Origin: a virus
Virus record (IMG/VR): IMGVR_UViG_3300009168_000068
Coordinates: 1 to 41,836 of that record
Reading direction: 5' to 3' (one strand)
DNA length: 41,836 nucleotides
How positions within the stretch are numbered: the first letter of the stretch is position 1; every line of letters starts with the position of its first letter. A model generated the notes under the pieces. That model did not search any database. It was not told where the DNA came from and saw only the letters and a program-made list of their open reading frames with translations. Shown here piece after piece: positions 1 to 41,836 of this stretch. The translations under genes and the position numbers were made by a program.

Positions 1-123
1 AGCGCCGCCGGCAACGCGCATCAGGCTGCGGTTGCAGCCTCATCCAATACGATCCAGCCTCGCCGCTGCGCGCAGGTCAGGCACCAGCCGCGCATCGGCA
101 CACCCTGCCGGATCAGCAAACCA
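1..123. repeat. Direct terminal repeat, left copy
   Basis: These 123 bases are identical to 41714-41836. The gene for a small zinc-binding protein on the minus strand runs through them and its downstream neighbour (40896-41699) begins 14 bases inside the right copy, so gene order is seamless when the ends are joined. This is what an assembler leaves when it walks around a circular or circularly permuted phage genome. A true short terminal repeat of a linear virion genome is possible but less likely at this length inside coding sequence. Confidence 0.95.
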
Positions 124-22038: not shown

Positions 22039-23271
22039 TCAGAGCATGTCCGGAACGCGGACAGCCCACTCGGGACGCACCCACTTGTAGCCGTAGAGCA
22101 CGTCCAGGCGGGTGATCATCTGGTCGTTGATGCCGTCGTAGAAAGTAATCAGCCGGATGCTCACGCCGTTGTAGCTTTCGCGATACGCCTCAACGACGCC
22201 CCGCGTCGGCATCTCCATCGGCACGATCGCCAGCGATACCGCCAACGGGTGAAAGATGAAGTTGTTGCGGTAGATTTCGTTGGTCGGCGTCAGACGCACG
22301 ATGATCGCGCCAGCGCCAGGCGATGCGCTCACCGTCTGGTTGGGTGCAGGTGCCGGACCGGCGAGCGGCGGCACCAGCGGCGGGTAGATCGGCAGTGCCG
22401 TGGCGGCAGGCGCCACGTCAGCCGTCAACACGAACTGCGCCAACTGCCCGGTAGACACTTTCGTCACCCGGTTGACCGCATAGACGCCAGCGAAGGTGAT
22501 GATGTCGCCCTTGGCCAGTCCGCCAGCCGGCACGGCACTGACCGTGATGGTCGAGCCGGACTGGCCGGCACCACCAACGGTCGGCATCGTGGCCGCCGAG
22601 CTGGTGGTATGCGACAGCACGGTTGGGTCTTGCGCCCAGTCCATGCCCAGCACGTCTTTCTTGATCATGGCGGTCTCGTACTGGTCGCCAATCTTGCTCT
22701 GCTGATTGAACAACCCGCTGAAACTGCCGACCGTGCGCGCCATGGTGATCGGGTCGAGGATGGCGCGGCGCTGACCGCGTGGCGTGCTGATCTTGTCGAG
22801 CAGCGCACCCGCTGTCGCCCAGGTGTTCAACGTCGGCGAGATAGTGTTGCTGCTGCCATCGACGTTGCGCACAATGTTGGGGATGGCTTCAGCGCCCCTC
22901 ATTATATCGACGGCGATGCCACCCACCAGCGTGTTGACCGCCGGCTGGATGACTCTAACGTCGTAGTCCTGCATCGACATCGTGCGCTCGACCATGCTGA
23001 ACGCGATGTCCACACCGACCTGGGTGGCCACGGTGAAGGGGGAGGTGGACTCTGTGGTGCTCTGTGCAACCGCGGTCGGGCCGGAGCGCAGCACGTAGTC
23101 GTTAGGCAGCCTGATCTGGATGGTCGATCCGGGTTTCTGCCCTGCTACTGAGGGCGATCCGAACTCATCCTGCCACTGGCGGTCCACCATCTGGAGGAAG
23201 GCGTTGGAATTGCGGAATAGCTCGAGTGCGCGGCGCACCACGAGGGTCGGCGTGATTAAACTGTTGGGCAT
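22039..23271 (-). CDS. Major capsid protein, P22 coat (gp5) family
   Basis: A 410-residue protein. MPNSLITPTLVVRRALELFR followed by NSNAFLQMVDRQWQDEFG is the usual opening of P22 coat-like proteins of phages in this group. GSTIQIRLPNDYVLRSG and STSPFTVATQVGVDIAF follow, with the HK97-fold body after. Residues about 230-290 (GSTITVSAVPAGGLAKGDII) correspond to the insertion (I) domain. About 415 copies would form a T=7 shell. It follows a scaffold gene across a 232-base gap that contains a short GGAAGC/GCTTCC palindrome (23344-23356) and a weak CTGGTG/CACCAG hairpin near 23390-23412. Confidence 0.9.
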   Translation of the reverse strand: MPNSLITPTLVVRRALELFRNSNAFLQMVDRQWQDEFGSPSVAGQKPGSTIQIRLPNDYVLRSGPTAVAQSTTESTSPFTVATQVGVDIAFSMVERTMSMQDYDVRVIQPAVNTLVGGIAVDIMRGAEAIPNIVRNVDGSSNTISPTLNTWATAGALLDKISTPRGQRRAILDPITMARTVGSFSGLFNQQSKIGDQYETAMIKKDVLGMDWAQDPTVLSHTTSSAATMPTVGGAGQSGSTITVSAVPAGGLAKGDIITFAGVYAVNRVTKVSTGQLAQFVLTADVAPAATALPIYPPLVPPLAGPAPAPNQTVSASPGAGAIIVRLTPTNEIYRNNFIFHPLAVSLAIVPMEMPTRGVVEAYRESYNGVSIRLITFYDGINDQMITRLDVLYGYKWVRPEWAVRVPDML

Positions 23272-24720: not shown

Positions 24721-27048
24721 TCACTGAACCATCTGTCCGTTGCCGGGGCCTGGAGGCGCCGCAGGGGCGCTGCCGCTTGCCGCACCCTCTGCTGGCTGCG
24801 GCGGGTTGGCACGCGCCTGCAGCGCGCCCTGCAGCTCCGCGTGACCATACAGGATCGGCTCCAGCTTCTGATCCAGCATATCGGCCACTAGGTCGCGCAC
24901 GATCACCTGCAGGCTCATCGGATCGACCGCCCCGACCGCCTTAAACCGATCGGTTTCCGCCGAGTAGTCCTTGATGATCAATTCGCCGGTCTTGTCCTTC
25001 AGTTGCATTTGCATTGTCGCAACCTGCTGCTTCAGCTCGGCGATCTCCTTGTCCGCCTTGCCCAGCAGCTCCGATGCCTCCTGCTGCACCTTCTGCGCCT
25101 CTGCGGTGATCATCTGCACCTGTGGATCAGGCCCGCCCGACTTGTATTGCGGCGGCAGCCCCTGCTTCAGCCGGTTGGCCATCTCGTCAGAACCGGGGAA
25201 ATCCGCATTTTTCGCCCAGAAATCGCCAATAACTTGAAAAGCAGCGCCATTCTGCGCAATCACCTGCGAGAAAGCGTTGAACGCCTCCTGCCGCTTGGTG
25301 GCGAACGACGGCCCCACATCGGCCACGACGCTGTATCGGCCGATCTTCGGGTTGAACACCGTCCGCATCGCCTCCTGACGCGCCGTGTCAGGGTCTTGCT
25401 CGCGGTTCATCGGCGGTTGTGCCGGCGGCATGTTCGGGTCCGGCGTGGTCTGGTGCGCCTGCGGCGCGTCAGGGTCGATATGCACCTGCGTCTGCGTGCC
25501 GTCCTCGCCGAAGATCATCAGCGCCCGCTTGCTGTCATACACCTTCGGAATCAGGTCGAGGATGATCCTCCCGGTGTAGCGGATCGCCGACGCCAGGCGA
25601 TCGATCACATGATACGTCGCATTGTCGCCCTGCCTCTGTCTGGCATTGATGGCCACGCCCGATGTCTCGTTGCTCGGCTCGCCCATCACCGCCTGATACT
25701 GGCCGGTGGCCATCATCATCTCGGCCTGGCTGATCCGCAGCCCTTCCATATACGCCGCCGCCATGACCGGCGGCTGCGCCCGCTGTGGCGGCGGAATCGA
25801 ATTGCCGTTGGCGTCTATGCCCTTGTAGAGCAGCACCGCCTTGTTCTCGGTGTTGGCGTTCTCCCAGTCCTTCTTGTGCGGCTCGATGCTCTCGGCAACG
25901 CCGACAAAAGGCGCCTTGGTCTGCAGCGCCACGAACTCGGCCGCCTGCGAAGTGTACCAGTTATACAGCCGCTGCGGATCGCGCAGATGCCGCACATGGC
26001 TGACCCAGTCCAACTGGCCGTTGATGATCACTTCCTCGCACGGCACCCGCACGATCGGCACAAACCGGCCTGGCCAGTCCTTGCGCTCGACAATCTTCTT
26101 GTCAGCGATCAGGAACCACTCAACGTCAGGCTCGGCGACATCCCGCTCGGCCACCGGCAGGATGCCGAGCTGCGCCAGTTGGTCGAGCAAACCATCCGGC
26201 ATGCTGCTCACCCGCACGATCGGCCCCTTGTCCGGGTCCATGCCCTGCGCCAACTGCATTGCGACATCCGGCGGGAACATCTCCAAAGCCCGCACCGGCA
26301 ATTGCACCAGCTTGTCGTGCTTCTCGCCGACCCGGTAATACTCGAGCACCTCGACGTGCTTATCGTCAGTGCGATAGCTGCGCGCCTCGCCGCGCGAACT
26401 CAGCGCGGCATTGTTCAGATTGACACTGTCTGGATCGTCGTCGCTGTCGCCGTATTCCGCCTGGAACTCATCCCGCGTCATCTCATAGAACAGAAAACCC
26501 CACTTCGCATCCGACCCATCCGCCTGCTGGATGTCGGGGTCCAGGTAAACCGAAGTCGGCTCGGGAACGCGCTTGATGTAGATTTCCTGATCGAACGTGT
26601 TGTCATGCGCGTAATCCACCAGCACGCGCCAGTAGCCGATTCCACCCATCACCTGGCAGTAGGTCGCGTTGGCATACGCCTGCTGCGCGTTGCTGATGTA
26701 TTCGATGTGCCGGATGATGCCTTCGTATATCTGCGAAGCCTCATACGTGGCATCGTCGCCAACCGGGTTGATCCTGATCTGCACCGGGTTCTGCCGCGCG
26801 TCGTTGATGATCTGCAGGCAATGCACGCGCGTCTTGTTAACGGTCAACGTCGGACGACCGGCTGACTTGCGCCCGCCGCTGATGGTGTCGGTCCACTGCG
26901 CCATGTTGTCGTCGTCGCCGTTGGCGAACTGCACGTCCTCGATGTAGTGGCGATGCGCGACGGACTGATACCCGTGGGCGTAGTCAAACCGCTCCTGCGC
27001 CTCATTGACGATATCTTCGTCCGTCTCGGCTTTCTTACTGCGTGCCAT
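24721..27048 (-). CDS. Portal protein, P22 family
   Basis: A 775-residue protein of the long P22-type portal family (P22 gp1 is 725). Marks include AHGYQSVAHRHYIEDVQFAN, RKSAGRPTLTVNKTRVHCLQ and NDARQNPVQIRINPVGDDA at the N-terminus, DWVSHVRHLRDPQRLYNWYT in the middle, and a long Gln-rich helical C-terminus (SELLGKADKEIAELKQQVAT) that would form the barrel into the capsid. It forms the dodecameric DNA channel at one vertex and docks with the terminase. It follows the large terminase with one small gene between. Confidence 0.92.
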   Translation of the reverse strand: MARSKKAETDEDIVNEAQERFDYAHGYQSVAHRHYIEDVQFANGDDDNMAQWTDTISGGRKSAGRPTLTVNKTRVHCLQIINDARQNPVQIRINPVGDDATYEASQIYEGIIRHIEYISNAQQAYANATYCQVMGGIGYWRVLVDYAHDNTFDQEIYIKRVPEPTSVYLDPDIQQADGSDAKWGFLFYEMTRDEFQAEYGDSDDDPDSVNLNNAALSSRGEARSYRTDDKHVEVLEYYRVGEKHDKLVQLPVRALEMFPPDVAMQLAQGMDPDKGPIVRVSSMPDGLLDQLAQLGILPVAERDVAEPDVEWFLIADKKIVERKDWPGRFVPIVRVPCEEVIINGQLDWVSHVRHLRDPQRLYNWYTSQAAEFVALQTKAPFVGVAESIEPHKKDWENANTENKAVLLYKGIDANGNSIPPPQRAQPPVMAAAYMEGLRISQAEMMMATGQYQAVMGEPSNETSGVAINARQRQGDNATYHVIDRLASAIRYTGRIILDLIPKVYDSKRALMIFGEDGTQTQVHIDPDAPQAHQTTPDPNMPPAQPPMNREQDPDTARQEAMRTVFNPKIGRYSVVADVGPSFATKRQEAFNAFSQVIAQNGAAFQVIGDFWAKNADFPGSDEMANRLKQGLPPQYKSGGPDPQVQMITAEAQKVQQEASELLGKADKEIAELKQQVATMQMQLKDKTGELIIKDYSAETDRFKAVGAVDPMSLQVIVRDLVADMLDQKLEPILYGHAELQGALQARANPPQPAEGAASGSAPAAPPGPGNGQMVQ

Positions 27049-27625: not shown

Positions 27626-28939
27626 TCACAGCCGCATCCAGTCTGCCTGCTTGTCCCCCGGCATCGGGTATTCCCATGGCTCCCTGGCCACCCGCTCAAT
27701 CGGCGCAGGCTGCTCCTCACGAGCACCGAGGCACAAATACCGCGCAGCATCCGCGCCATGGCTGGCGTGGTCATGCACCGGCGATGAACGCCAGGTCTGC
27801 GCCGCCTCGGCCCATTCTCTGCGGTAATGCCGCAGCGCGTTGATGCCCTTGGCGCAGCGCTCGGCGTCGAACCACGCCCGCGGCAGCACCAGCCGCACCG
27901 CGTTGATCCCGTCAGCCACACTATGCTGTCGCACAATGCGCGTGGGGTTCACGCCGAGCGAGTGCAGCGTCTCCGTTCTGGCCTTGCCAGACCCCAGCTC
28001 CCGCACCTTGGCGTCATGCGGCAGCAAGTGCTTTTCGTAGACGTAGGGCCGCTGCTGGAGCAGGCGCACATAGTGGTCGAGTCCGACGCCGCTGTCCTCG
28101 ATGTAGTCTATCAGCCTCCACTCGCCGCCGCGAGTGATCTGGCAGCACCAGATGGCGGTGGAATCGTCCACACCCAGATCCCAGGCGGTCCATACCTTCA
28201 GCGCCGGGTCGTGCGGCACGCTGGTGATCCGACCAGCCCGCTCCGCCTCGTCCATCAGCTTGCCGTAGTAGCTGCCCGAGTTAGGCGCGTTGAACGAGCA
28301 TTCCAGCTCCTGCGCGAACTCCTCCTCCGACATCTCGGTGCGCAACCGCGCAATCGCCTCGGCCGACAGCGCGTTGGTCTTCGTGTAGTCCAGCAGATAG
28401 GCGCTGTGGCCCTCGGTGACCCTGGCCCGGTCATACGCCGCCTGCAGCACGCCACGCCCCTTCGGCGTCCCACTGCGCACCAGCGTGCCGTCCCGGTCCG
28501 CCAGCATCGGCTCGATCACCAGCGGCACCAGCGAAGGTGGCGTGTCGTCCGCCTCATCAATGATGCATTCGTCAGCGTAGCCACCACGCCACGAATCTGG
28601 GTTATCTGCACCACCCGCCTGGTAAATCCCGCCGTTAGGTAGCCGCACCAGCATCTCAGACCGGCGCACCGTGGCGCCGGGTATCGCGTCAGCCGCACGC
28701 GTAAGCTGGTCCCATAGCCCCGTCCGCGACCACATCACGCCGTAGGGCAGGATATGCACCACACGCGGCAACGGCTTCTTGTCGGTCAGTGCCCGCTTCA
28801 AGCCGCGCCACATCAGCCCGGTCGATTTACCGGCACGACGATGCACCACAGCGACGATGCGCGGCGCCCGATCGTCTATGAGGGGGCGCTGCCACGGTCG
28901 CGGGGCAAACGGCAGGGTGATGGATTTACGCTCAGGCAT
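27626..28939 (-). CDS. terL: Terminase large subunit
   Basis: A 437-residue packaging motor. Residues 31-40 (VVHRRAGKST) form the Walker A loop, 124-131 (CIIDEAD) the Walker B strand with catalytic glutamate, and SGTPKGRG the coupling motif. The C-terminal nuclease domain shows WDLGVDDST (about 252-260) with the first metal-binding Asp and HDHASHGADAARY near the end with the later ones. It cuts concatemers and drives DNA into the head by ATP hydrolysis. The ATG at 28939 follows the stop of the small upstream gene by two bases. Confidence 0.93.
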   Translation of the reverse strand: MPERKSITLPFAPRPWQRPLIDDRAPRIVAVVHRRAGKSTGLMWRGLKRALTDKKPLPRVVHILPYGVMWSRTGLWDQLTRAADAIPGATVRRSEMLVRLPNGGIYQAGGADNPDSWRGGYADECIIDEADDTPPSLVPLVIEPMLADRDGTLVRSGTPKGRGVLQAAYDRARVTEGHSAYLLDYTKTNALSAEAIARLRTEMSEEEFAQELECSFNAPNSGSYYGKLMDEAERAGRITSVPHDPALKVWTAWDLGVDDSTAIWCCQITRGGEWRLIDYIEDSGVGLDHYVRLLQQRPYVYEKHLLPHDAKVRELGSGKARTETLHSLGVNPTRIVRQHSVADGINAVRLVLPRAWFDAERCAKGINALRHYRREWAEAAQTWRSSPVHDHASHGADAARYLCLGAREEQPAPIERVAREPWEYPMPGDKQADWMRL

Positions 28940-28941
28940 TG

Positions 28942-29178
28942 CTACTTCACGTCGTAATTCTTCTTCATCTTCGGCAGCGCCTCCGGATCACGAAAGCACT
29001 CCGGCACGCCCATCTCATGCTCGCCGTTCCAGTCCTCATCGGCCGGCAGGTCGCCCTGATACGCCATCGCCTTCCACGTCTCGCGATTCAGCGGCAGGCC
29101 ACGCTCCAGCATGGTCTGCAGCGTCGGGTCTTCCTCGGCATAGCGCGCGGCGATCTCGCGCGGCACATCGTCGCTCAT
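28942..29178 (-). CDS. Hypothetical 78-residue protein before terminase
   Basis: A small acidic, helical protein starting MSDDVPREIAARYAEEDPTL. It contains PLNRETWKAMAYQGDLPADE, a short unit seen in small phage proteins next to terminase genes. It has no visible DNA-binding motif. The ATG overlaps the stop of the 843-residue gene (ATGA). It could be a packaging accessory or small terminase candidate by position, though the protein at 35178 looks better for that. Confidence 0.65.
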   Translation of the reverse strand: MSDDVPREIAARYAEEDPTLQTMLERGLPLNRETWKAMAYQGDLPADEDWNGEHEMGVPECFRDPEALPKMKKNYDVK

Positions 29179-31706
29179 TTCGGTTTCTCCTGCTTGCGCC
29201 AGACCAGCTCTTCCTTGACGAACTTCTTGCCGATCTGCTCGCCCACTGCATCCTTCCCGCGGTTGGGCACAAACCCCAGCCGCTCATAAAGCCGGCGCTG
29301 GTCCTCCCGCGCCACCCTGCCTCGCGCCGCGTCACTGGTCAGCACCACCGGGTTGCCGCGCGCCGCCGCCTCGTCCTGAATCTGGCGGATCACCTCAGAA
29401 CCGAAGCCCTTGCGCTGCGCAGAGGGGAAAATCTCGATACTGGCGATGCGGGTTTGCGTCTCGCCGTGCTCAACCTTCACCTTGCCGATCGGGTTGCCGC
29501 CCGCCGTGATCGTGCCGTCGTCCGCGATCGTCACCTCAGCGTCCTTCTTAGCCGGCGAAACATACCACGTTGGCGGGTCGATGCCACCGGAATGCTCCAA
29601 TATTTGTGCTCGGGCCTGCTGCGCGGTAATCCGCCCCTCACGAAAATCCTGCCAAATGGCTGCGTTCTTGGCGACAAACGCCTCGTCCCGCTTCTGCTCG
29701 GGTGAAAAGAGGCCCCTGACGGCCTCCCAGGCGATCGACTGCACCTGGCGGGGCAACAGGCCCAGCTTCTCCGCCGCCCGCCGGTAGGCCTCATGGTGGA
29801 TCGCATAGCCCCCCTTGGAGCCGGTGACGATCGAGGAACTGCCACCGGTCCCCAGGCCGAAATCGACCACAGGATGGCTCCCGCCCATCGGGCGCAGATG
29901 CGTCGCGTTGATCGCGTGGGTGTCGATCGTCGTGTCGCCCCAATCGCTGTTGGGGCTGATGATGTTATTGAAGAACGAGCGCACCTTGTGATTGCCGCCG
30001 AGACTCTTACTGAGGGTCCGCAGGTCGTCGGTGTGCAACGCCTGCAGCGCCTTCCTGATCTCGCCGAAACTGCCCCAGCCAATCTTGCTCGGCGTGCCGT
30101 CAGCGTTGGTCGAGGCCTCAGCAAACCCGCCTTCCGGGGTGACGATCGGGTAGTCTTTTGAATTGTGCGCCTCGTCATAGGCCCTGGCGAACACCGCCTG
30201 CGCGTCCGGGTCGTTGATCTCCCGCAGAGGCCGACCACGACGCAGGCTCGACAGCGTCATCTCCAAGCTGTCAGCCGATTTCTGCTTGCCGAAGTAACTA
30301 ACCACCGCCTTAGGCGGCTTAGTGCCGTTCTGCACCGCCTCCTGCAACGCCGCGGCGGCCGTCTCCGGCGTAAAGCCTCCCTTGGCCAGCGCTTTGACGT
30401 TCTCCGCCTCGATCTGCGCCTGGTAGGACTGCGACCAGGCCTCCATCTCCGGCGACCAGCTATTTTCCTGGCGGTTCTTGATCACATCGACCAGGCGCTT
30501 GCCCAGATCAGCGTTCTGGTACCAATCTTTTTGCGGGCTTAGGTTCGCCATCAGTGCCGCGATCTGCCGCGGCGTGTAACCCGTCTCCGCAGCGATCTTC
30601 AGCGCGATCTCGTGCGCCCCGTCATACCACCTGGCCGCCCGTGCGACCGTCTCCGGCCCATATCGATCGCGCATGCCGTCATGCAGGAACAGCAGGTTAT
30701 CGACCATGTGCTGGATGGTTTTTTCCACGATGTTGTCGGGGTTGCGCATCCCCTTCACCGGCAGATCGGGGAAGTCCCCGTCGCGCAACAGCATCGCGTT
30801 CTTGTCCCACGCCTCCTTGGCGCGTTTCGACGCCTCCAGGCTGACATTTGACGTGGCGACCGTGTGCGGATCAGCCTCGCCAGGCTCGATGTTCTTCTCG
30901 GCGCGGGTTGAGACGCGGTCCTGCTCGCGGATGCCCTTCAGGATCGGCGTGTCCGCCATCTCCCCCGCAGCTTTGGCCTCCGCCGCCGCGGTCTTTGCCA
31001 CCACCTCAGTGAGCGGCACCGCGTCGGCGGGGCGCACCACGCCCATGGTGCGGTCGATCGCCTCGTCCAGCGCCGTACGCTGCACTGCCCTGGCCTCGGT
31101 GGCCGCCAGGCGGGCATCCCGCTTGCTGCCGCCAAACGCGTTCAGCACGTCAGCGACTGGCCGCTCCAGCGGGTTGACCAGGGAAGCCAGGGCCAGGGTG
31201 CCCTCCGGCGTCACGCCGCCCGTGCGCGGCCCTTGCGACACGTCCCAGGCACCCTGCGCCAGGCTGCGCAGGCCGGCTGGCAGGGCAATCCGCAGCTCGC
31301 CGGTCGCATTATCACGCGCCATCGGCAGCACATCGCCGTATGTCGTGTTGGCTGCGGGCGCCAGGGCGTTCTGCACGGCAGCATCGATCGCCGCATCGCG
31401 GGCCGTGGCCGGGGTCTGGTTGGCCCGGTGCAGCGTCATCCAGCCAAGGTTCGTGCTCGGCGCGTCATAGCCGGCATAGTTCACCAGCCGCTCGGTGCCG
31501 ACCACGTTGCTGGTAGGCCACATCGGATTGACCGGCGTCGGCGGCGCACTCCACGCAACCGGTGGCGCATAGCGTGGCGCGCCGCTGGTGACGCCTGGCA
31601 GCGCCTCGACACCAGGGTCGAGCATATTGCCCCGAGCGCGCAGTGCGGCCAGCCAGGCCTCCAGCGCGTCGGGTGACGCCGTCAGCAGTGCATTGTCCGA
31701 GGCCAT
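29175..31706 (-). CDS. Large polyvalent-type protein with C-terminal GNAT domain
   Basis: An 843-residue multidomain protein. Residues 1-300 are Ala/Pro-rich and low in structure. The middle (about 320-660) contains TGYTPRQIAALMANLSPQKD, then DLRTLSKSLGGNHKVRSFFN and NIISPNSDWGDTTIDTHAIN, the S-P-x-x-x-W / F-x-N-I...T-I-D-x-H-A pattern of a helical domain found in phage polyvalent proteins. Residues about 735-825 are a GNAT fold (IEIFPSAQRKGFGSEVIRQI; RRLYERLGFVPNRG). Such proteins may be packaged and injected to act on the host, which is an inference. It precedes the terminase genes. Confidence 0.7.
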   Translation of the reverse strand: MASDNALLTASPDALEAWLAALRARGNMLDPGVEALPGVTSGAPRYAPPVAWSAPPTPVNPMWPTSNVVGTERLVNYAGYDAPSTNLGWMTLHRANQTPATARDAAIDAAVQNALAPAANTTYGDVLPMARDNATGELRIALPAGLRSLAQGAWDVSQGPRTGGVTPEGTLALASLVNPLERPVADVLNAFGGSKRDARLAATEARAVQRTALDEAIDRTMGVVRPADAVPLTEVVAKTAAAEAKAAGEMADTPILKGIREQDRVSTRAEKNIEPGEADPHTVATSNVSLEASKRAKEAWDKNAMLLRDGDFPDLPVKGMRNPDNIVEKTIQHMVDNLLFLHDGMRDRYGPETVARAARWYDGAHEIALKIAAETGYTPRQIAALMANLSPQKDWYQNADLGKRLVDVIKNRQENSWSPEMEAWSQSYQAQIEAENVKALAKGGFTPETAAAALQEAVQNGTKPPKAVVSYFGKQKSADSLEMTLSSLRRGRPLREINDPDAQAVFARAYDEAHNSKDYPIVTPEGGFAEASTNADGTPSKIGWGSFGEIRKALQALHTDDLRTLSKSLGGNHKVRSFFNNIISPNSDWGDTTIDTHAINATHLRPMGGSHPVVDFGLGTGGSSSIVTGSKGGYAIHHEAYRRAAEKLGLLPRQVQSIAWEAVRGLFSPEQKRDEAFVAKNAAIWQDFREGRITAQQARAQILEHSGGIDPPTWYVSPAKKDAEVTIADDGTITAGGNPIGKVKVEHGETQTRIASIEIFPSAQRKGFGSEVIRQIQDEAAARGNPVVLTSDAARGRVAREDQRRLYERLGFVPNRGKDAVGEQIGKKFVKEELVWRKQEKPK

Positions 31707-31920: not shown

Positions 31921-33915
31921 TCAGGTGATGCACCAGCCCCAGGCCGGATGCCATGCGCTCCGGTTGTGCCGGGTGAACTCGCTGTCGATCCACGCATAGG
32001 CTGAAGCAGCCTCGCTCACCCCGTTACGCGCCGCCACCGCCAGCGCCGCACGCACATACTGTGCGTATCCCACCGAGCCGCTGGTTTCGTTGTAAAGCTC
32101 GTTCATCCCACTTGGATCGGACGGCATGTGCGGCACGTCTTCCGGGTGCATCGCCACAGCTCGCATCGCCGCCTCGAGCCACGACAGATAGGTTGGCCCG
32201 ACCAGCACCTGGCCCGCTGCATGCGCCACCGGAGCGGTGCGCTCGACCTCCCACAGCGCCGTATCGCTCTTGTCGATGACCAGCATAGTTTCGCTCTGGC
32301 ATTTAACCTGGAAAGGTTCCACGGGCCACGGCCCGCCACCATACTTATCGACCGGGACAAACGTGTCTGCCTCGGTGATAGCCGCTGTCAGGCTGCATGT
32401 ATATACGAGGCCTGTGTTGTAGGGACATGGCGCGGAGCGCGGCCATGCCTCGCCGTTGGTCCGGTTGATCTCCGAATCGATCTTCCAGGCCAGCACCTCA
32501 AACCACTCATCGAAGCCAAGTTGCGCGCACATTCCATAAACCAGGCTTTCCATCGCACACTGCCAAAACACGGCATAAGTGCCGGAGGGGTGCGCCGGAG
32601 TGCCCTGCGATCCACCGAATTGCCGGGCGCGGAACACCGACAGGATCGGGTTCGGGTCCGCCATGTCCTTCAGCGCCTCAGCGCGCACCCCCTCCATGTG
32701 CGCATGGAACACTGACTTAGGCAGCAACCAGCGCGGCGGATCGTCCGGCGATGCTACGGCGGCGTAGAGCTTGTTGCGGAGCGGCCAGGCGCCGTATCTA
32801 CCGCCATATGTATATCTGCCCTTCGCCGGCTCGCCCAGAATCTCAATGTTGGATTGGAACTGGAGCGCCTCCAGATAGTACGGATCACCCGTCAGCAGCC
32901 ACGGCAGGTAGCTGCACGCCGGACTGTGTCCGCTGTCATAAGCAACGATGCCCTTGGTCAGCGGCACAATCGGATCACCGCCGTTGGTGTAGCTGGTTAA
33001 CGTTGGCCAATCGTTGGCCAGATCGAGCGGCGCGCCCGTCTCCGGATCACGCAGATGCATGCTGATGGTGCCCGACGCCTCGCCCTGGGCAATGACGGTT
33101 TCGGCATTATTCCCTTTGCACAAATATTGCGCCTGCCAACCAGTCATGATGCCGATGTCGGCGCGATCGCCGGTCCACCCCATGCCGGTGACCATGCCGC
33201 TGAAACCCATGACGCTGTAGGTCTGCGGCGCCAGGTCGGCGATGAACTGGCCTAGCGTCGTGCCGTCATAGTGCGGCACCAACCCCGACTGGATCAGTGT
33301 CTGACGGTCAACCCGCACCGGTCGTGGCGCAGACTGCCAGCGCCACCTGGCATACCAGGGATGCGATGGCACGGCGATCGTGGCAACCAGTTCATCACCG
33401 TCCCAAATCTCGGCCTCGTATTCGCCCAGATTGGCTGGCGTCAGCGAGGCCACCAGGGGCACGCCAAGCTCGACGATCACCTCTTGTCGGGAACCATCAG
33501 CGTCAGGCCTGAACCACACCGTCAGCCCAGGCAGCGCGTCGTCCTGGCGGGGCGCACGGTAGCAGTGTTGGGTGAACATGCCGCCCGGGTCGACGTAGTC
33601 CCCCAGGTTCTCGGCCCCCGCCTCCTCATAGACAGTCTCGCCGGATGCGGCGCGGATGACGACGGCCAGCCCCTCGCCTGGCTCCGGCTTGGGCGGTTCA
33701 GGCGTCGGCAGCGCGTTATCGATGATGCCGCCTGGCAGCCCGATCTCGATCGGCGGCGTGGTGCCGGCAGCCTGCTCCAGCACCGCCACCCTGGCGTTCA
33801 GATCGGCGATCGCCTGCTCGTGCTCGGCGAGCATGTCGTCAGTGGCATCAGCCCGCATCTCGAGGGATGCAACCCGCTGCTCGAGCTGCGCATCGCTCAC
33901 TGGAGGCTTACCCAC
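31921..33915 (-). CDS. Putative tailspike with alpha/alpha-toroid glycan-active domain
   Basis: A 664-residue protein. It opens with a trimeric-coiled-coil-like region (LEQRVASLEMRADATDDMLA; AIADLNARVAVLEQA), then a proline-rich hinge (about 60-80) and a beta-sandwich (85-200). Residues about 210-660 contain DSGHSPACSYLPWLLTGDPY, the H-x-P-x-x-x-Y-L-x-x-L-L-T-G-D pattern known from helical-toroid lyase or hydrolase-like proteins. A receptor-binding or capsule/EPS-degrading spike fits. The start is GTG at 33915, overlapping the TAG of the PEP-CTERM gene. Catalytic residues are not assigned. Confidence 0.6.
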   Translation of the reverse strand: MGKPPVSDAQLEQRVASLEMRADATDDMLAEHEQAIADLNARVAVLEQAAGTTPPIEIGLPGGIIDNALPTPEPPKPEPGEGLAVVIRAASGETVYEEAGAENLGDYVDPGGMFTQHCYRAPRQDDALPGLTVWFRPDADGSRQEVIVELGVPLVASLTPANLGEYEAEIWDGDELVATIAVPSHPWYARWRWQSAPRPVRVDRQTLIQSGLVPHYDGTTLGQFIADLAPQTYSVMGFSGMVTGMGWTGDRADIGIMTGWQAQYLCKGNNAETVIAQGEASGTISMHLRDPETGAPLDLANDWPTLTSYTNGGDPIVPLTKGIVAYDSGHSPACSYLPWLLTGDPYYLEALQFQSNIEILGEPAKGRYTYGGRYGAWPLRNKLYAAVASPDDPPRWLLPKSVFHAHMEGVRAEALKDMADPNPILSVFRARQFGGSQGTPAHPSGTYAVFWQCAMESLVYGMCAQLGFDEWFEVLAWKIDSEINRTNGEAWPRSAPCPYNTGLVYTCSLTAAITEADTFVPVDKYGGGPWPVEPFQVKCQSETMLVIDKSDTALWEVERTAPVAHAAGQVLVGPTYLSWLEAAMRAVAMHPEDVPHMPSDPSGMNELYNETSGSVGYAQYVRAALAVAARNGVSEAASAYAWIDSEFTRHNRSAWHPAWGWCIT

Positions 33916-34631
33916 TACACGCTACGGCGACGCACAGCAGCGATGCCGAGCAGACCGAGGCCGAGGAGGCCCAGGGTGGCCGGCTCTGGCACCGCGGCTG
34001 CGGTCGTCACCATGCTTTGGTTAAAGCCCGTAATGCTGCCGCCTGTGATCAGCGCCAGCGACGCCCCCTCAGTCATGCTGAACGAGTCGCCATCAACGAA
34101 CGCCGCAACGTTGCTGCCCGCGAAAGAATCGGGATTGGTGGTCGCGGCCCCGCTGACGCTCTCCAGCAGGATGCCAGGCGTGTTGGTCGGGTTGGCGCCC
34201 TGCACGTTGGCCGCGTCTGCCCAGAACTTCAATGTGCTGTCCGGCGCGCCGACGTTGTCGTTGAAGGTGAGGCTGCCCGAGTTGGTCACGAGACTGACCG
34301 GCCCGACGTAGTCGGTCTGGCTGGCCAGCAGGGTGACAACGATCGGCGCCCCCGACTGGTTCTCGATGTTGCTCGAGGACATTTGCAGCGAGTTGCTGGC
34401 GCCGCTGGTGCTCTGCACGAGGGTGATCTGCACAAAGGCGCCGCCCACCAGCGTATTGACGGTCAGCAAGTTATTCGCCCCGCCGGACAAATCACAACCC
34501 AACTGCCCATCGGCACACGTAAAGGTCGAGCCGTTCGCCCCGATGCTCAATTGCAGGGTGGCGTGAGCCGGCGGCACGAAGGCGAAGCTGGCGGTAGCGA
34601 TGGCGGTAGCGGCGAGCAGCAACGTGCGCAT
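33915..34631 (-). CDS. PEP-CTERM sorting-domain protein
   Basis: A 238-residue secreted protein. MRTLLLAATAIATASFAF with PPAHA after it is a Sec signal peptide, likely cut after AHA. The body is Ser/Thr/Asn-rich beta structure with two cysteines (FTCADGQLGCDLSG) that could pair. The ending VPEPATLGLLGLGLLG followed by IAAVRRR (214-236) is a textbook PEP-CTERM signal: the PEP motif, a hydrophobic helix, then arginines, recognised by exosortase and linked in bacteria to exopolysaccharide export. It has CAGGAGG seven bases before the ATG. This is a bacterial-type surface protein inside the phage late region, so it was probably acquired from a host. Confidence 0.9.
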   Translation of the reverse strand: MRTLLLAATAIATASFAFVPPAHATLQLSIGANGSTFTCADGQLGCDLSGGANNLLTVNTLVGGAFVQITLVQSTSGASNSLQMSSSNIENQSGAPIVVTLLASQTDYVGPVSLVTNSGSLTFNDNVGAPDSTLKFWADAANVQGANPTNTPGILLESVSGAATTNPDSFAGSNVAAFVDGDSFSMTEGASLALITGGSITGFNQSMVTTAAAVPEPATLGLLGLGLLGIAAVRRRSV

Positions 34632-34704
34632 GGCGTGGCCTCCTGGGTTAGGGTTATGATGATCATGCCGCTTTCACAGCGTCAGCGGCAACTGTAACCA
34701 TCGA

Positions 34705-35177: not shown

Positions 35178-35507
35178 CTATTCCTCGACGGTTTCATCGG
35201 TAACTATGAACGAAACCACATTAGTTTCATCTGCATCTATCGTGATCGGCTCTGGCGAAGTTGCGTCTGCCCATCTGAAGTCTACCGCAATCGGCGCACC
35301 ACCCTCACCGGTCAATTGCAACGGCAGTATCTTGCCGATCAGCATCATGAACGATGCCGGCGTGTCGATCGCGCGCGCGGCGAGGTACTTGCGACCACCG
35401 ACATCCGACAGAGCGCCCAGGATCAGCTCCTTAAGATCGGTCGTGATCTTGTTCGGAACGCCTGGCTTGCGACCAGCCCCCGGCTGTTTTCCACCTTTCC
35501 CAGCCAT
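35178..35507 (-). CDS. Probable terminase small subunit-like protein
   Basis: A 109-residue protein starting MAGKGGKQPGAGRKPGVPNK, the G-A-G-R-x-x-G-x-x-N-K opening shared by many small phage DNA-binding and terminase-small-subunit-like proteins. LKELILGALSDVGGRKYLAA and PASFMMLIGKILPLQL follow. The C-terminus is acidic. It may recognise phage DNA for packaging. It lies far from the large terminase (about 6 kb) but in the same transcription direction. The assignment rests on N-terminal pattern only. Confidence 0.55.
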   Translation of the reverse strand: MAGKGGKQPGAGRKPGVPNKITTDLKELILGALSDVGGRKYLAARAIDTPASFMMLIGKILPLQLTGEGGAPIAVDFRWADATSPEPITIDADETNVVSFIVTDETVEE

Positions 35508-35935: not shown

Positions 35936-36511
35936 TCAGAGCCGGTGCAGCGCGTCGAGCGGGACAGTCACCTGGCGCAGCCCGCCCAACAGCAAAATGG
36001 CGACGCTGGCTGTTGAGCGGCGCAGCTTGACGATGACGCCCTGGTGTCCCTCGAGCGCAGTGCCCGCGCCGAGGCTCACAGCGTCACCTGGCGCATACAG
36101 CGCCCGTGGTGCCTCGAGGGTGCGACGACCATCCTCGGTCGCCACCAGCGCCTCCACGGCGCCATCAGGACAGGCGATCGGCAGGTTCCCCACCCGCACC
36201 AGCGAGGCGACACCGAGCGTGTGCAGCACCGGCCGCCACGGATCACGCGTCGCGTCGAACCGTACGAAAAGATACCTAGGGAACAGCGGCACCTGCACGG
36301 CGTGCCACATCGAGCGCACCACCCGGTCCCGCTGCCGGACGGCGAGGAGGGGCAAATACGCCTGATAGCCTTGCCGATCGAGGTGTTGTGCGGCCCGCCG
36401 CTCCGCCTGCGGGTGGCTCATCACGACGTACCACGACGCCCTGCCACCACCACGGCTACCGCACGGCGTGGTAGCCGACCCATTGGCTGCCACACCGCAT
36501 GTTGTGTCCAC
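35936..36511 (-). CDS. NusG/RfaH-like transcription elongation factor
   Basis: A 191-residue protein. From about residue 26 it shows the NGN domain: SWYVVMSHPQAERRAAQHLD, GYQAYLPLLAVRQRDRVV, then VPLFPRYLFVRFD, followed by LGVASLVRVGNLP. The C-terminal part, YAPGDAVSLGAGTALEGHQG and VIVKLR, is a KOW-type barrel. NusG homologues ride on RNA polymerase, and specialised ones such as RfaH prevent termination in particular operons. The start is GTG at 36511 or GTG at 36493, both without a strong ribosome site; an 8-bp inverted repeat lies in the extension (36453-36477). It stands just after a hairpin cluster at the head of the late genes. Confidence 0.85.
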   Translation of the reverse strand: MDTTCGVAANGSATTPCGSRGGGRASWYVVMSHPQAERRAAQHLDRQGYQAYLPLLAVRQRDRVVRSMWHAVQVPLFPRYLFVRFDATRDPWRPVLHTLGVASLVRVGNLPIACPDGAVEALVATEDGRRTLEAPRALYAPGDAVSLGAGTALEGHQGVIVKLRRSTASVAILLLGGLRQVTVPLDALHRL

Positions 36512-41713: not shown

Positions 41714-41836
41714 AGCGCCGCCGGCAACGCGCATCAGGCTGCGGTTGCAGCCTCATCCAATACGATCCAGCCTCGCCGCTGCGCGCAGGTCAGGCACCAG
41801 CCGCGCATCGGCACACCCTGCCGGATCAGCAAACCA
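41714..41836. repeat. Direct terminal repeat, right copy
   Basis: Exact copy of positions 1-123. It contains the 3' part of the small zinc-binding gene again, cut off by the contig end, and should not be counted as a second gene. Confidence 0.95.

Follow-up and report, generated by a model that had tools for sequence, protein, structure and literature searches.

Apart from the phage genes treated here, PEP-CTERM sorting tags have been known on bacterial proteins (PMC1569441); phages go unmentioned in the 2006 paper in which the PEP-CTERM/exosortase system was defined. One such protein is the flocculation protein PepA, whose overexpression turns soluble exopolysaccharide into the bound form and restores flocs (PMC9850573). 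On the phage side, the llp gene of T5 and of BF23 adjoins the gene of the receptor-binding protein; the two Llps are non-homologous, and each blocks the receptor of its phage (PMC4728585, PMC9586334). EBPR siphovirus 1 comes from an Accumulibacter-dominated sludge reactor, and the paper that reports it does not mention PEP-CTERM. A literature search found no paper describing phage genes for exosortase substrates, and phage-encoded substrates appear to be undescribed so far.

The DNA analysed here (the window) is the whole IMG/VR virus record IMGVR_UViG_3300009168_000068, of 41,836 nt; its main features are listed in Table 1. Given the 123-bp terminal repeat, the genome is complete or circularly permuted. 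By its portal, coat and terminase matches the window is the genome of a P22-like podophage, and the closest relatives of its portal reach only 42%. No tRNA genes were found in it. The small ORF regarded as the probable terminase small subunit has no profile match; its homologue directly precedes TerL in L098, an independent viral contig that is related to the window through its terminase, RfaH-like and TerS-like genes. The RfaH/NusG-like protein also has a counterpart in L098 (51%), and an ops site of the E. coli type, as used by RfaH, was not found across the window.

Table 1. Features of the 41,836-nt window and the basis of their assignment.
Feature	Position	Strand	Basis
Direct terminal repeat, 123 bp	1..123, identical to 41714-41836		sequence comparison
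P22-like coat protein	22039..23271	(-)	PF11651, E 1.5e-34
P22-like portal protein	24721..27048	(-)	PF16510, E 2.1e-153
Terminase large subunit (TerL)	27626..28939	(-)	phrog_2, E 1.5e-25
843-aa protein in the terL-tailspike interval	29175..31706	(-)	DUF7178 and C-terminal GNAT acetyltransferase domain
Tailspike-like protein of 664 aa with GTG start and coiled-coil N-terminus	31921..33915	(-)	predicted role
PEP-CTERM protein gene (body family A), 238 aa, ATG start	33915..34631	(-)	PF07589, TIGR02595, homologues
PEP-CTERM sorting tag VPEPATLGLLGLGLLGIAAVRRR	33924..33995	(-)	profiles; helix 217-237
Mature body, predicted beta-sandwich	33996..34559	(-)	AlphaFold2
Sec signal peptide, residues 1-24, AxA cleavage motif AHA before T	34560..34631	(-)	conservation, N-terminal helix
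Ribosome-binding site AGGAG, 8 nt upstream of the PEP-CTERM gene start	34640..34644	(-)	read from sequence
Probable terminase small subunit (TerS-like), small ORF	35178..35507	(-)	motif and position
RfaH/NusG-like antiterminator, phage-encoded	35936..36511	(-)	TIGR01955, 92 bits, under cut-off 144.5; phrog_6386

An earlier note on this DNA had proposed that the gene upstream of the tailspike-like gene encodes a protein with a Sec signal peptide and a full PEP-CTERM tail, and the profile searches bear this out. The C-terminal tag scores 33.2 bits with Pfam PF07589 and 26.1 bits with TIGR02595, above the curated cut-offs of 20.7 and 16, respectively. As read from the ORF, the 238-residue protein starts with MRTLLLAATAIATASFAFVPPAHA, where cleavage would leave T as the first mature residue, continues with the body and ends with VPEPATLGLLGLGLLGIAAVRRRSV. 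In a six-frame search this gene gave the sole PEP-CTERM match of the window (E 1.7e-10), and the same model matched nothing in 14 control genomes. The signal peptide, called by inspection and conservation, shows a basic n-region, a hydrophobic helix and an AxA motif that is invariant in 48/48 family members. The AlphaFold2 model (mean pLDDT 87) consists of a helix at residues 3-15, a beta-sandwich at 27-211 and a helix at 217-237, the latter followed by RRR; the body is all beta in this model, with no further membrane segment, and carries the conserved motif CxDG[QE]L[SG]CD (C39, C46). Foldseek returned weak and generic matches for the predicted body (TM 0.2-0.4), including carbohydrate-binding modules and phage tail domains; likewise, its weak matches in BFVD include tail proteins, and a search of solved structures with the body gave nothing better than E 0.3. 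A promoter scan found none on the strand of the gene. By the profile, the signal peptide and the C-terminal helix with its basic cluster, the product is a PEP-CTERM protein.

Another aspect of this gene is the origin of the enzyme that would process its product. An exosortase gene was found in none of 48 viral records (the window and 47 related ones), which extends to its relatives what had been noticed for the window, and the phage would therefore rely on the exosortase of its host. The PEP-CTERM profile matched in 45 of these records, seven of which encode two such proteins. Most family members (43/48) have a tag of the PEPxxW(A/V) type, and the PEPxxWA-CTERM model NF035944 matched 17 of the 19 members tried. 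The window, L026 and L003 have a generic tag and form a clade (98% support) nested among the PEPxxWA members; on this tree, the tag has switched from PEPxxWA to generic in the window's clade. A constant body with an exchanged tag would be the expected outcome of adaptation to another host's exosortase. A DNA pattern for PEPxxWAM proved too unspecific for a census: of the 17 frames left after a motif filter, roughly half were unrelated or due to chance.

The search for homologues in relatives suggested by the earlier note showed that the gene is widespread. A further 54 IMG/VR viral contigs, from several unrelated phage types, carry homologues that are 44-86% identical to the window protein, apart from two contigs at about 35%. 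The body gave no meaningful match in INPHARED, and two scans of 84,980 bacterial and archaeal species genomes with short conserved peptides, which may miss distant relatives, found no homologue; from these results the body appears to be virus-restricted. In a 48-member alignment 22 columns are invariant, including A22 and A24 of the AxA motif, C39/D41/C46/D47, P215 and E216 of the PEP motif, and G226. Judged by dN/dS, which against the two closest relatives is 0.14/0.83 and 0.20/0.95, i.e., about 0.17-0.21, the body is under purifying selection. The neighbourhoods of the gene vary: in podophages it adjoins the portal (phrog_1216) and terminase genes, and in other cases it follows tail-fibre and M15 endolysin genes or is next to an integrase gene. 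When backbone labels taken from flanks of up to 10 kb were placed on the body tree, 12 label changes were counted for four backbone groups plus the window, against a shuffled mean of 13.7. The body tree does not follow the phage backbone, which indicates that the gene has been exchanged among phage types; on this evidence it is a widespread mobile phage cassette and not a lone oddity. A separate PEP-CTERM family, C, was seen in seven viral contigs (L099-L105); the gene that immediately follows is the tailspike in L099 and a portal-like gene in L101, L102 and L104.

As mentioned above, the gene lies next to a tailspike-like gene. The tailspike-like protein has no match in Pfam, PHROG or PDB, its single-sequence AlphaFold2 model is of low confidence (pLDDT 43), and relatives of it occur in 14 viral contigs. 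The TAG stop of the PEP-CTERM gene and the GTG start of the tailspike share one nucleotide (TAGTG, 33913-33917). In L098 and L099 a PEP-CTERM gene is likewise found directly upstream of a homologous tailspike, with the overlaps GTGA and TGATG, respectively. The bodies ahead of these tailspikes belong to families A (window), B (L098) and C (L099), and blastp among the three gave no significant match, so the coupling described in the earlier note recurs with unrelated PEP-CTERM bodies. All four contigs longer than 30 kb that carry the tailspike (the window, G001, G055 and G056) encode a PEP-CTERM protein somewhere, and ten shorter ones (fragments of 7.7-16.9 kb) show no PEP-CTERM gene. The suggestion that the two genes form a functional unit holds in part: the partnership is real in the window's phage group, but most family-A phages lack the tailspike, and the pair is therefore no obligate unit. 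Repeat proteins of low complexity, rich in Pro and Gly (PPGYWGGIAPP, DQGLP/DNTLP), were found more than once next to the PEP-CTERM gene, in L052 (6387-7067) and L064 (11097-11624), and the similar motifs DNALP and DNTLP are present in N-terminal linkers of the tailspike.

The exchange of bodies can be seen at one locus in two syntenic sister phages, L094 (in G056) and G001, which mostly share 78-95% nucleotide identity. Their PEP-CTERM genes have a common 60-bp leader (93%) and the flanks are kept, but the body has been exchanged; the difference is that between families A and D, whose resemblance is weak (32% over 66 aa, E 0.003). The G001 protein is 86% identical to that of the window (88% over the best segment) and its tailspike 78% identical; G001 is otherwise unlike the window, and a likeness limited to these two proteins suggests that the two phages have a common host. 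Bodies A to I share the signal peptide and the tag alone. The second PEP-CTERM proteins that were examined have bodies unrelated to the first. In L031, L032, L036, L059 and L060 such a second protein lies in tandem, as the second ORF downstream of the PEP-CTERM gene, and the copies of L031, L032 and L060 form a separate family (34-65% identity).

The architecture described so far, that is, the gene, its tags, its conservation and spread among phages, the exchange of bodies, the coupling to the tailspike and the lack of a phage exosortase, is well supported by sequence analysis. The reading that we favour, with a probability of roughly 0.4, is that of a surface protein sorted by the host exosortase, most likely for superinfection exclusion or for masking of the receptor or exopolysaccharide. 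The protein would be made together with the tailspike through the overlapping stop and start codons and would be carried across the inner membrane by Sec, with removal of the signal peptide. The C-terminal helix would then retain it until it is cut at the PEP tag, as a substrate of the host exosortase, and the beta-sandwich would thereby be sorted to the outer surface or the exopolysaccharide layer. Once displayed, the beta-sandwich would most likely mask the receptor of the tailspike or the surface polysaccharide, which would keep sibling phages from superinfecting and released virions from sticking to debris or infected cells; it would thus be a functional analogue of the Llp lipoproteins of T5 and BF23. 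We infer the host exosortase, the cleavage, the surface location, the timing and the masking function. The llp precedent in T5 and BF23, together with a Sec/exosortase route taken by exchangeable bodies beside receptor-binding genes, favours this display for exclusion or masking. Nevertheless, a body tailored to one receptor does not agree well with the finding of three different ones beside similar tailspikes, most family-A phages are without the tailspike, the ten short tailspike fragments show no PEP-CTERM gene, and the body gave weak, generic fold matches.

A less probable explanation, which we place second on account of the PepA overexpression effect (PMC9850573), is that the sorted protein modifies the exopolysaccharide matrix. 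Like PepA in bacteria, it would attach exopolysaccharide to the cell, altering aggregation or removing soluble polysaccharide that traps virions, and would act as a lysogenic-conversion gene in temperate members. The weak matches of the beta-sandwich to carbohydrate-binding modules are in line with this, as is a sub-threshold match to the PepA model NF033554 (47.3 bits, cut-off 80); that match, however, is due mostly to the tag, and just 4 of 19 members give it (E <= 0.001). An integrase is present in 9 of the 48 records, next to the PEP-CTERM gene in G003, G004 and G006, but the other 39, some of them fragments, show no tyrosine integrase. The window is among the latter: it has no match to PF00589, and so lacks this mark of the temperate phage expected for a lysogenic-conversion gene.

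It is rather unlikely that the protein is a decoy whose tag alone saturates the host exosortase, leaving host PEP-CTERM proteins unmatured and the exopolysaccharide coat weaker before lysis. A tag type that switches on a kept body would agree with it, as would the restriction of what bodies A to I share; but body A is strongly conserved (22 invariant columns in 48 diverse phages, dN/dS about 0.17), which speaks against pure competition for exosortase, one of the roles considered earlier. Still less probable is a virion component, such as a decoration or tail protein, with a chance or relic tag. The adjacent tailspike gene and the tail proteins among the BFVD matches are the points in its favour; against it, the signal-peptidase site, the C-terminal membrane helix and the basic tail are kept across the family, many members are not beside tail genes, and the Foldseek TM values are only 0.2-0.4. 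Carriage on particles, also raised before, looks unlikely for a protein that is predicted to be secreted and membrane-anchored and that belongs to a non-enveloped podophage. Finally, a chimeric contig or host contamination at 33.9-34.7 kb, which the otherwise bacterial occurrence of PEP-CTERM proteins might suggest, is refuted by L098, where the order RfaH-like, small ORF, TerS-like ... PEP-CTERM, tailspike is repeated, and is further opposed by the terminal repeat, by the 54 homologous viral contigs with an 86% relative in the different phage G001, and by the lack of a homologue in the 84,980 prokaryote genomes scanned.

More generally, and only tentatively, phages of exopolysaccharide-making bacteria may share a mobile display cassette with a constant leader, a signal peptide, a host-matched exosortase tag and exchangeable bodies, by which the host exosortase would put phage-chosen proteins on the infected-cell surface, giving exclusion types or surface remodelling. 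If the protein is processed as its tag implies, viruses use the exosortase sorting pathway as their own, the first non-bacterial use of it; tag switches on a constant body would be a natural experiment on tag-exosortase specificity, and phages would have a possible means of influencing superinfection, flocs and biofilms in bacteria of soil and sludge.

When compared with known systems, the window protein resembles the bacterial substrates of the PEP-CTERM/exosortase (EpsH) system (TIGR02595, PF07589, NF035944) in its signal peptide, diverse extracellular body and PEP motif with helix and Arg cluster; in contrast with these, the phage proteins are encoded without exosortase or exopolysaccharide genes, and their body families were absent from sequenced bacterial genomes in the short-pattern scans. 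With floc PepA it shares secretion, the PEP-CTERM tag and a similar length, and the weak match to the PepA model is full-length; a close orthology to PepA was rejected on the score and the number of matching members given above. EBPR siphovirus 1 (JF412302) also encodes a phage PEP-CTERM protein, the hypothetical gp29 (tag 25.5 bits; JF412302.1 12677-13411, L232 841-1575), and its gp39 is the only distant relative of the window tailspike in INPHARED (31% over 148 aa); the body of gp29, however, is unrelated, and its gene is not adjacent to that of gp39. The superinfection-exclusion lipoproteins, Llp of T5 and BF23 and the T1-type Cor, are alike in being exported phage proteins encoded beside the gene of a receptor-binding protein. 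Such adjacency is found in the window, L098 and L099, taking the inferred tailspike role as given, and is absent in most of the other phages with family A. Unlike Llp, which is small and a lipoprotein, the window protein is a larger predicted beta-sandwich with a signal-peptidase-I site and a PEP-CTERM tag; no lipobox is present in it, the AxA site being followed by T and not by Cys at +1. Nevertheless, T5 and BF23 place non-homologous bodies in one slot, as is also the case for the phage PEP-CTERM bodies.
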